From Candidatus Poseidoniia archaeon (GTDB lineage Archaea; Thermoplasmatota; Poseidoniia; MGIII; CG-Epi1): a stretch of 42,336 nucleotides of DNA. The stretch lies in assembly GCA_030748895.1 (NCBI GenBank), contig JASMLC010000001.1:1-42336 (forward strand), given 5' to 3'. This document shows positions 1 through 2,444 of the stretch, piece after piece (within the stretch, counting starts at the first letter, position 1; every line of letters begins with the position of its first letter). A program made the translations under genes and the position numbers. The notes below the pieces were generated by a model, which saw only the letters and a list, made by a program, of their open reading frames with translations, was not told the origin of the DNA and ran no database searches.

Positions 1-908
1 AGTCCAGTGACCTGCAGGTTCCCTCGCTCCAATAATTGCAGTGGTACCTCAAGGCGATGATTCCCCGAGTTAGAATCTGCTGGTGAAATATTCTCAGCTT
101 GCAGGATGAGGGTGTGGCTGCCAAGTTCCTGATTTGCAGTCTCAAAGCTGAAATTGAGATCAAGGTTGGCGCCATTCTCCAGGATTAATCCCACTTTTCG
201 TTCTAACAGTCCCTGCACGTTTTCCTCATCTATATAGAGAGCCAAGTTACACGTCGCATTACCGCCTAGGTTCTGCAAGACCACGTCCAACGTAGTGGCC
301 TGTCCCTGAATCGGAGCTGTTGGATTTAGCTCAATATCATTTTCAGCCAGCATGACGTCTGCCTTTTCAGTAGTGACCTGAAAAGGTTGTCTGGCGTCTG
401 TCAGGACATTGAAACCATCATCATGGTCATTACTCCCGTCAAGCAGCAGTATCAGGGTATCACTGCCGGCCTGGGACCCGGTGACGCTCCACTCCAGAAT
501 GCGGCTATTTCCTTCGCCTTCCCTCAAGTTGATGATATAGTCGGAAGGGTTATCTATCTCCAGGGTGTCATTCTCCGTACTGAGGATATAATCAACGCGC
601 TCATATCGTGTATACTGGTCCCGAATACCCTCAGCATCGTTCCAGATTTCAGCCAGTATAGTTCCTTCCTCTCCTACTTCGAGTTCAGGTACCACAAGAC
701 TACTGACAACAATGTAGCCTTCGTATTCTTCATCATGGTGGCCGTTATGGCATGAATTATCACAAGATGTGCCTCCATGGGTCTGTTCCAGCCCCTCCAC
801 AGACAGACTAATCAGCGTAGCGTAGGCAAGTGCCAGAAACACCAGCGCGTGATTCCAGCCGCTGAAAGGAGGTCGGGTAAACTGTAGCAGCAGGGGGAAT
901 CTCATCAT
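1..908 (-). CDS. Partial secreted/membrane-anchored CARDB-domain protein (C-terminus beyond window)
   Basis: The reverse strand is open from an ATG at 908 (an in-frame ATG also lies at 905) to the window edge, giving about 302 residues without a stop. The start has an N-terminal hydrophobic anchor (about residues 19-38). It is followed by a Cys/His-rich segment, CDNSCHNGHH, which resembles a non-standard CX3CH heme site or another metal site. Beta-rich, Ig-like sequence follows, and residues about 200-300 resemble a CARDB adhesion-type domain (conserved pattern LDVVLQNLGGNAT). The likely role is a cell-surface protein facing outside, but the function is unknown. A TATA-like CTAAAAG at 933-927 lies within the 39-bp repeat directly upstream and fits a leaderless start. 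Base composition is AT-richer than the rest of the window, which suggests an acquired or fast-evolving strip. The reading frame is well supported; the heme idea is only a motif resemblance. Confidence 0.75.
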   Translation of the reverse strand, partial: MMRFPLLLQFTRPPFSGWNHALVFLALAYATLISLSVEGLEQTHGGTSCDNSCHNGHHDEEYEGYIVVSSLVVPELEVGEEGTILAEIWNDAEGIRDQYTRYERVDYILSTENDTLEIDNPSDYIINLREGEGNSRILEWSVTGSQAGSDTLILLLDGSNDHDDGFNVLTDARQPFQVTTEKADVMLAENDIELNPTAPIQGQATTLDVVLQNLGGNATCNLALYIDEENVQGLLERKVGLILENGANLDLNFSFETANQELGSHTLILQAENISPADSNSGNHRLEVPLQLLERGNLQVTG

Positions 909-945
909 GGTCACAGAGTCACCATGCTTTTAGGGTTTTCTAAGA
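907..945 (-). repeat. Direct repeat copy A carrying the promoter of the CARDB gene
   Basis: This 39-nt block matches 1759-1797 at 37 of 39 positions. On the minus strand it contains a TATA-like box (CTAAAAG, 933-927) about 24 nt before the ATG at 908, plus the partly symmetrical element GGTGACTCTGTGACC (923-909). The block ends exactly at the gene start, so it looks like a promoter module. This copy also contains a five-codon reading frame (ATG GTG ACT CTG TGA, from 925), which copy B does not keep. Confidence 0.8.
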
Positions 946-948
946 AGG

Positions 949-965
949 CGGTAAAATCTTTACCG
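949..965. promoter_or_regulatory. Perfect palindrome upstream of the CARDB gene
   Basis: CGGTAAA and TTTACCG flank a 3-nt spacer. The palindrome lies about 16 nt upstream of the TATA-like box in repeat copy A and is absent next to copy B. Its position suits an activator or repressor operator. The remaining bases up to 1111 are AT-rich, and I see no gene in them. Confidence 0.4.
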
Positions 966-1111
966 ACTTTGTAGTTTGTTTACCATGTCGATGAAGGATA
1001 TATTTCAGCATATTCAGTGACTTTTGCATCTAAAACGGTAATAGCTTACGTAACTTATAATGTAACGGTGACCTATTCAGGGCGACGGCGCAGTGCCATG
1101 ACGGCAAAAGC

Positions 1112-1450
1112 TTATTTCTTTTTATTACTAACTTCTAATATTTCTTCTAAATCCAATTGCTTTAACTGTATGAAATCAAAAATCGGATTGAAAAACATTA
1201 CTGTGATGCCAAGAACTATTAGTACGCTCACAGCACCTATTACAAAGAGATGAGATGAAAGATAATGGGATTCATTTATTATCCAATGCGTTGCTAAACT
1301 GGAAATAATAAGGAGTGGTACACCGTACAGAACTATTGCTGCAGCTAGCATCATATTGGATTGCATTCCCTTCTTTTCAGATAATATTAATTGATTATTT
1401 ATTTCATCAAGTTTTTGAATGATCTCATCCAGTTTTTCATTCAATCCCAC
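1112..1450 (-). CDS. Small two-TM membrane protein with N-terminal coiled coil
   Basis: 112 residues from a GTG start at 1450; the 3' neighbour starts after about 200 nt. Residues 3-30 form a heptad-like coiled coil (NEKLDEIIQKLDEINNQL). Two hydrophobic segments follow (about 33-55 and 68-90), then a charged C-terminus. The start overlaps the end of the zinc-ribbon gene by 10 nt, so the two genes are almost certainly translationally coupled and may work as a pair, for example as a membrane-tethered complex. I do not recognise a family. Codons are AT-rich compared with the window, as in the two flanking genes. Confidence 0.75.
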   Translation of the reverse strand: MGLNEKLDEIIQKLDEINNQLILSEKKGMQSNMMLAAAIVLYGVPLLIISSLATHWIINESHYLSSHLFVIGAVSVLIVLGITVMFFNPIFDFIQLKQLDLEEILEVSNKKK

Positions 1451-1758
1451 ATGGTCACCCCAGCACTCTCATCCCTGGACATCCGGCTTCCGCATTTGGG
1501 GCAATCATAGTTTTCCTCCTCTCCCTTGTCATAGCGGTCTTTCTGGCCCCAGCCCCTGACATTGGTTCCACCACATTCTCTGCATTTTCCAATATCATCC
1601 TTCCATTCCTCTTTCTCGGTCTCGACGGTAATATCACCAATTTCCTTGCAATCATCGCAAGTCACAGTGATAGTCATAGCAAAGAATCCCGAGTCTGGCA
1701 TACCGGAAACATGCGCTGAATAGCCACAATCACATTTGAAAGTAAAGTAAGCTCCCAT
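1441..1758 (-). CDS. Double zinc-ribbon protein
   Basis: 105 residues from an ATG at 1758. Four cysteine pairs are visible: C9/C11 (CDC), C34/C37 (CDDC), C59/C62 (CREC) and C86/C89 (CPKC). This suggests two consecutive zinc ribbons, the second one acidic (KGEEENYD). No enzymatic motif is seen; nucleic-acid or protein binding is the usual role of such folds. It is the first gene of a two-gene unit with the membrane protein that it overlaps, and it is driven from repeat copy B, whose TATA-like box lies about 26-20 nt upstream of the ATG. The specific function is unknown. Confidence 0.75.
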   Translation of the reverse strand: MGAYFTFKCDCGYSAHVSGMPDSGFFAMTITVTCDDCKEIGDITVETEKEEWKDDIGKCRECGGTNVRGWGQKDRYDKGEEENYDCPKCGSRMSRDESAGVTMWD

Positions 1759-1797
1759 ATGGTCGCAGAGTCACCATGCTTTAAGGGTTTTCTAAGA
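1759..1797 (-). repeat. Direct repeat copy B carrying the promoter of the zinc-ribbon/membrane gene pair
   Basis: This is the second copy of the 39-nt block at 907-945. The TATA-like box reads CTTAAAG (1785-1779), and the block ends directly before the ATG at 1758. The two copies are 852 bp apart in the same orientation and bracket the two-gene unit. It also marks approximately where the AT-richer strip ends. Confidence 0.8.
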
Positions 1798-1995
1798 GAA
1801 GCCGGATGAGGAAGCCTTCTGCAATGACTACGTGAGGCCCAGTTCTTCCTTCAGGGCATCGTCCGGTTGAAGGGCATTGCCCAGCTCCTTGTCCGCAAGT
1901 ATCTCGTTCAGCGCCTTCTCGGCCATCTGCCCTGCCACTTTCTTCTCGATGATCTCGAGGATGTTGTCGTAGGTCAATGCGACGCCACGGCTGCG

Positions 1996-2015
1996 GGCCC
2001 AGCTCAGGCTGGGCC
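1996..2015. repeat. Hairpin copy 1 (8-bp stem)
   Basis: GGCCCAGC and GCTGGGCC flank the loop TCAG, a perfect inverted repeat. The same unit recurs at 2111-2129 with one base changed in the loop. It coincides with the frame break in the surrounding coding-like sequence. Confidence 0.7.
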
Positions 2016-2174: not shown

Positions 2175-2444
2175 TCAGTAGTTGTCGCGGCGGGGTGCCC
2201 GTTCCTGAGCGGCGTCAACCTTCAAGGTGCGTCCGTCAGCTTCGCTGCCGTTGATGGCCTCGATTGCTGCACTCGCTTCTTCGGCGGTCGACATCTCGAC
2301 AAAACCGAAGCCGCGGGAGCGGCCACTCATCCGGTCCATTATGACCTTGGCTGACTGCACTTCGCCGTGCTCCCCGAACAGCTGTCCGAGGTCTTCGTCC
2401 TTGAACGACCATGGTAGGTTGCCCACGTATATGTTTCTGCTCAT
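2175..2444 (-). CDS. Single-RRM RNA-binding protein
   Basis: 89 residues that form one complete RNA recognition motif. RNP2 is IYVGNL (5-10) and RNP1 is RGFGFVEM (44-51), with the aromatic residues that stack on RNA. A short basic tail (RAPRRDNY) follows. The architecture matches the small glycine-rich/cold-inducible RRM proteins of bacteria, which act on single-stranded RNA. RRM proteins are patchy in archaea, so the gene may have a bacterial origin (inference). It has its own TATA-like box at 2493-2499 and, unlike most genes here, a leader of roughly 27 nt with a hairpin and Shine-Dalgarno sequence. Confidence 0.92.
   Translation of the reverse strand: MSRNIYVGNLPWSFKDEDLGQLFGEHGEVQSAKVIMDRMSGRSRGFGFVEMSTAEEASAAIEAINGSEADGRTLKVDAAQERAPRRDNY

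Follow-up and report, generated by a model that had tools for sequence, protein, structure and literature searches.

A low-GC patch with a shared promoter block beside a putative family-wide gene exchange site in a Poseidoniia archaeon

The left end of the window (the whole stretch of 42,336 nucleotides that was analyzed) carries a low-GC patch with two leftward transcription units, one made of a zinc-ribbon gene and a membrane-protein gene and the other of a CARDB-domain gene, both of which start from nearly identical 39-nt blocks predicted to be promoters. The patch ends exactly at a 23-nt sequence that recurs across the genomes of the family. In related genomes, slots bounded by a promoter block and by this 23-nt site hold unrelated genes between exact homology edges, and we therefore read the patch as one such exchange slot, in which promoter-sharing units were joined at the site beside an old integrase remnant. 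On balance, we consider this reading probable. The broader result is the putative exchange site itself, which occurs across the family.

Table 1. Coordinates of the features in the window
Feature	Position	Strand	Remarks
CARDB-domain surface-type gene	1..908	-	Incomplete at contig start
39-nt block, copy 1	907..945	-	BRE/TATA promoter (predicted) and imperfect palindrome, directly before the CARDB gene
Candidate degenerate half-site after copy 1	939..952	+	TCTAAGA-AAGGCGG vs TCTAAGAGAAGCCGG; weak, found after the fact
Perfect inverted repeat 6-3-6, GGTAAAATCTTTACC	950..964	.	Close upstream of copy 1, no equivalent at copy 2
Small membrane protein, 112 aa, two hydrophobic segments	1112..1450	-	10-nt overlap with the zinc-ribbon gene
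Small zinc-ribbon-like protein, 105 aa	1441..1758	-	No convincing relatives found
39-nt block, copy 2	1759..1797	-	Same promoter (predicted), directly before the zinc-ribbon gene; touches the 23-nt site
23-nt site copy	1798..1820	+	Family-wide consensus CAAGCCGGATGAGGAAGCCTGAG; here GAAGCCGGATGAGGAAGCCTTCT
Tyrosine-recombinase gene, 3' remnant, about 57 codons	1828..1999	-	Gene intact in G003 (L157:6576-7877)
Junction	1996..1999	.	G001/G002 homology ends here; both continue into 23S rRNA
RRM protein gene	2175..2444	-	Conserved neighbor, anchors the chromosome side of the junction

The low-GC patch and its right edge

The GC-content over positions 1-1797 is 35-50%, relative to mostly 58-78% further to the right and about 64% for the genome. 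GC3 values are 0.52 for the CARDB gene, 0.50 for the zinc-ribbon gene and 0.28 for the membrane-protein gene (genome median of 0.82). The earlier note had taken AT-rich composition as the mark of a two-gene cassette: the region is low in GC and foreign-looking, but the low GC-content covers all of 1-1797, CARDB gene included. The whole patch is foreign-looking and lineage-specific; it starts at the 23-nt site and extends leftwards, and its left edge is out of view because the CARDB gene extends past the start of the contig. No contig of the same genome was found to overlap this one (C1) and continue it. The rest of the patch may lie in contigs C21 to C53, which read as N and place about 41 kb outside our searches (contigs C54-C72 were not included).

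The three genes of the patch are close to orphans: no convincing relatives of the zinc-ribbon and membrane-protein genes were found in the same family, and the CARDB gene presents weak, domain-level relatives only. We rejected a viral origin, as nothing in IMG/VR convincingly matched the three genes, the integrase of G003, the block, the site or the promoter block of the relatives; one weak match to the zinc-ribbon protein (L091) is a 17-residue stretch ending an unrelated reading frame. A plasmid origin was also rejected, with no match for the zinc-ribbon protein.

To the right of the patch, the neighborhood of RRM, acyl-CoA dehydrogenase and NAC genes is conserved across the genus. In this part, the window is 92-94% identical to its nearest congeners, G001 and G002, with homology up to position 1996, and the patch stands where both have a 23S rRNA neighbor. 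This 23S rRNA is archaeal, as identified by Rfam in G001, and is common to G002 by alignment; it places the organism among the archaea, probably in a marine lineage of the class Poseidoniia (Marine Group III).

Directly beside the site at 1798 lies the remnant of an integrase gene. Positions 1793-1999 correspond, at 90% identity, to the 3' end of a G003 gene whose full-length product is a tyrosine recombinase of 433 aa (PF00589, E = 6e-21). Homology with G003 continues for 5 nt beyond the 20-nt motif of the 23-nt site and then stops, and a different gene follows in G003. The genome of the window, G002 and G005 contain a C-terminal integrase fragment only, with a start near the same codon in each of them (373-376). 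The fragments of G002 and G005 lie elsewhere in the chromosome (G002:C25:4240-4416 and G005:C8:28265-28441), and the counterpart of that locus in the genome of the window (C2, about 3.3-3.9 kb) holds other sequence.

Other mobile-looking DNA was also observed. A stretch of about 44 kb (G000:C5, about 52,000-96,000; L072-L074) presents 40-49% GC in the 64% GC genome, with a tRNA-Gln gene at about its left edge (L072:11044-11119), and is possibly an integrated element. The 3.65-kb contig G000:C20 (L107) encodes another tyrosine recombinase, of 312 aa, whose gene closely follows that of a small protein resembling a ribbon-helix-helix regulator, and is perhaps part of a mobile element.

The 23-nt site and probable gene exchange in relatives

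A 20-nt motif of the site, AGGCTTCCTCATCCGGCTTS, was found in 25 copies in 14 of the 21 genomes of the family, relative to a single copy for the reversed control. Its consensus in the opposite direction is the one given in Table 1, and it is near-invariant over about 20 positions. The copies usually stand within low-GC DNA without any conserved flank, and most are located at the 3' end of a gene, in many cases between two convergent genes with stop codons touching each side. Among the family genomes, we could link no recombinase to the sites: at most two tyrosine recombinases were detected per genome, and none in several site-bearing genomes, which are incomplete. A limited search of open-access papers returned no description of the site. 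In the genome of the window (G000), two further site copies (G000:C6:54841 and 55507; L076:14841, 15507) have the same orientation within a low-GC region and are separated by 667 bp; between them is a small gene, named by eye as SnoaL-like, and part of the promoter region of the relatives (TTATAGGATCTATAGTAGACCC) stands beside the first copy.

Four relatives (G013, G015, G008 and G014) share one slot with the same two genes on the left and one shared gene on the right, which we take to be peroxiredoxin-like from its C-terminal sequence, and the flanks of the slot are 73-83% identical among them (pairwise BLAST). On the left, homology stops within a promoter block (...CCACAGTATTAAATTAAACAAAGGCGTCAGGG) or at its end, and on the right it starts within 0-2 nt of the 23-nt site. 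The genes in between are small membrane genes that are unrelated and present no DNA similarity. Variable genes exchanged at a common site, as in integrons, were found comparatively in these four genomes, with the 23-nt site as the boundary.

The promoter block of the relatives was found in 11 copies in eight genomes (0 for the control) before different small genes, among which just one homologous pair was found. The tested proteins behind this block have hydrophobic segments, like the membrane protein of the patch. G017 presents two block-gene-site units head to tail, and G013 an extra stretch of 758 bp between two site copies. These comparisons are evidence that genes have been replaced at the 23-nt site in the family. 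The patch differs in two respects: its 39-nt block is unrelated in sequence to the promoter block of the relatives, and its genes start at the site whereas most genes of the relatives end at it (with one parallel, G017:C20).

Alternatively, the 23-nt sequence could be a two-way terminator, or another 3'-end signal kept by selection, with ordinary turnover of the adjacent genes. In most copies, the stop codons of the neighboring genes, often on both sides, fall at about -4..+21 and +23..+31 relative to the site, as would be expected for such a signal, and some site-bearing genomes show no tyrosine recombinase. REP-like intergenic repeats and two-way terminators stand between convergent genes, and the site resembles them as a short dispersed sequence at gene 3' ends that is often found in this position. 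Unlike them, it has no notable hairpin (we found no clear fold on either strand and fold z-scores were near background), and it coincides with exact gene-exchange boundaries and with tandem block-gene-site units. The coding reading also bears on this question. In five genes (L192, L194, L195, L199 and L201), the site is translated in frame and gives a C-terminal PDEEA-stop, and 10 of 16 upstream genes end in the PDEEA frame (P about 0.016); in low-GC genomes, the letters of the KPDEEA-stop reading are near-invariant even at codon third positions, which argues against a terminator. We regard this alternative as possible but rather doubtful.

The predicted promoter block shared by two units

The two 39-nt copies, read as TCTTAGAAAACCCTWAAAGCATGGTGACTCTGYGACCAT on the minus strand, are direct repeats with 37/39 identical bases and a start-to-start distance of 852; zero such repeats are expected in shuffled sequences. 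Copy 2 abuts the ATG of the zinc-ribbon gene (1758-1756), and the final two letters of copy 1 are the first two letters of the first ATG of the CARDB gene, which opens with tandem ATGs (908-906 and 905-903). The earlier note had described near-identical blocks flush with two gene starts, and this description holds. Its statement that the flanks are dissimilar needs a correction for about 8 nt further upstream, where they are alike with a 2-nt gap (CCGCCTTC--TTAG / CCGGCTTCTCTTAG). At 1448-1457, at the start of the membrane-protein gene inside the end of the zinc-ribbon gene, GGTGACCATG is like the end of the block (TGTGACCATG).

A promoter model was fitted to the upstream sequences of 1,063 ORFs called in the same genome. 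It returned AAASCYTTWWAWMC, located about 34 nt before the ATG in about one third of the ORFs. The BRE and TATA elements of the blocks, AAACCCTTAAAGCA in copy 2 and AAAACCCTAAAAGC in copy 1, start 32 nt before the zinc-ribbon ATG and 31 nt before the CARDB ATG, respectively. On this model, the blocks score 10.0 and 11.6 at 31-32 nt before the ATG; equal or better scores are reached by 9% and 4% of the ORF upstream sequences and by 0.4% and 0.08% of random 30-mers. Since both blocks match the model at this distance, the left half of the block is, by its sequence, a leaderless archaeal promoter, in agreement with the TATA-like box at leaderless spacing claimed previously for each copy. The 39-nt block is thereby predicted to hold an entire archaeal core promoter, with BRE and TATA at the usual distance of this genome, followed by an imperfect palindrome, and both promoters are presumably active. 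Leaderless archaeal promoters share these two elements and their spacing; here, in contrast, the whole 39 nt, beyond the core elements, are common to two unrelated units.

The earlier note had also proposed a gain/loss cassette. This idea stands in kind, as relatives contain units of small genes that come and go, with a common promoter block and exact edges, but the boundary is the 23-nt site and not the 39-nt repeat. Under the preferred reading of an exchange slot, DNA with the two units (block, zinc-ribbon and membrane-protein genes; block and CARDB gene) would have been joined at the site next to the integrase remnant, by the same process that presumably formed the slots of the relatives. 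The agent might be an Xer-like tyrosine recombinase acting in trans, or plain homologous recombination through block and site. The common promoter would let each arriving unit be expressed, and the repeat itself could be a promoter module common to the units, or the footprint left when a promoter was duplicated or inserted together with genes. A shared promoter block is understandable in the context of gene exchange at the site in the family. Downstream of a 2-nt gap after copy 1, AAGGCGG is 6/7 like the AAGCCGG of the site (chance about 0.5%, post hoc).

It is also conceivable that the event was purely local, i.e., that the promoter was duplicated, or inserted together with genes, before the zinc-ribbon pair, with the site and the integrase remnant as bystanders. 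There are just two copies, close together and in the same orientation, and the few more upstream bases that are alike with a small gap fit such an event. A genome-wide scan for shared promoters, which returned mainly coding repeats, paralogues and one promoter/signal-peptide family, revealed no other shared-promoter pair of such degree between non-paralogous genes; the block pair was itself absent from its output because the CARDB ORF runs off the contig. What speaks against a local event is that copy 2 touches the site exactly (1797/1798), that G003 has a different gene at the same site, and that the family shows gene exchange at 23-nt sites. We consider it somewhat unlikely. Several other genes share a 5' module (about CCTAAACCCACCCGGCACTGCAACCSCGATG; G000:C2:84737, C3:1592, C4 about 42 kb and C9:32228), and at least two of them have a common signal-peptide-like start (MRPRPFLLL / MHPRPSLLL) with different bodies, which is another instance of shared starts among the genes of this genome.

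Compatible with the exchange slot is a role of the block in regulation, in which a repressor or activator would bind GGTGACTCTGYGACC between the TATA box and the start codon and control both units. This position is typical for archaeal repressors, and an imperfect palindrome (ATGGTnACnnnGTnACCAT) is found there; the pattern GGTNACNNNGTNACC is expected 0.01 times in the window. The inverted repeat upstream of copy 1 (Table 1) could be a second operator. The palindrome of the block, GGTGACTCTGTGACC, has one extra mismatch in copy 2 (T to C), which breaks one of its pairs, and no regulator gene is linked. The searches for further copies also argue against a wider role. BLAST against the same genome (1.395 Mb, of which 1.354 Mb readable) returned just the known pair, and the best remaining match to the 39-mer (25/39, in 1.137 Mb of this genome) is under that of the reversed control (27/39). 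Hits to the core GGTGACTCTGTGACCAT were present among 60 relatives, and those viewed with their context lacked the promoter of the block, which was not seen either at the other hits of the palindrome in the same genome. Exact block patterns were absent from IMG/VR and from GTDB r220, where records near this genome may be missing. With no further copy in the readable genome or in the relatives, a wider regulon of the palindrome is not supported and was rejected. The search of related genomes for the block, suggested by the earlier note, thus returned none, and the small regulon sharing one control site that it had proposed finds no support in these searches. Joint control of the two units by a bound regulator is doubtful.

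Finally, the 39-nt copies could be recombination (att) sites flanking an excisable two-gene unit, since they are direct repeats that bracket 0.8 kb of low-GC DNA near an integrase remnant, but we rejected this as the main reading and regard it as very unlikely because the block matches the promoter model, correctly spaced, ahead of both genes and no empty site or excised form was seen, the patch edge being at the 23-nt site, the low GC-content extending beyond copy 1 and the integrase being a remnant. Excision between the copies is possible, and nothing shows it happening. None of the genomes searched has a single block copy, or the CARDB gene without the zinc-ribbon/membrane unit, because none has a convincing copy of the patch genes. 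An IS or MITE has terminal inverted repeats and a short target duplication; no inverted repeat bounds 907-1797.

Known systems and implications

In SSV-type archaeal elements, the integrase gene is split on integration. The patch is similar in that a C-terminal integrase fragment lies at the edge of foreign DNA and that a fragment starting near the same codon lies at another locus in G002 and G005. It differs in that the N-terminal part was not found in the readable genome (the contig stops within the patch, and the small contigs are masked) and that no tRNA gene lies at the patch edge.

Integrons, including those of archaea (Ghaly et al. 2022, PMC9668308), are similar in that small genes stand in a slot at a short common site and differ between genomes, that tandem units are possible, and that the site in G003 has a tyrosine recombinase gene next to it. 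Unlike integrons, no IntI was found here (the integrase of G003 scores 25.7 bits relative to a cut-off of 265 for TIGR02249), and the site is about 23 nt long, without attC R boxes or a clear fold; each unit also brings its own promoter and the neighboring genes point both ways. Around the 25 sites, no consistent GTTRRRY/RYYYAAC pair was found, and attC identity was rejected on the lack of R boxes and of a clear fold. An integron was rejected on the two tested features, IntI and attC sites.

We tentatively suggest that these loci may represent an undescribed, non-integron cassette system in a family of uncultured archaea. Each unit would consist of a promoter block, one or two small genes that mostly encode membrane proteins, and the 23-nt sequence on the 3' side, where recombination would swap or stack the units, and the 39-nt promoter would be a second promoter type. 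If true, these archaea would have defined arrival places for small genes that bring along a ready-made promoter and a defined end, a gain of genes resembling that of integron cassettes without the integron parts tested. The 23-nt sequence offers a concrete means of finding exchange loci across uncultured archaea, and it poses the question of which recombinase, if any, uses the site.
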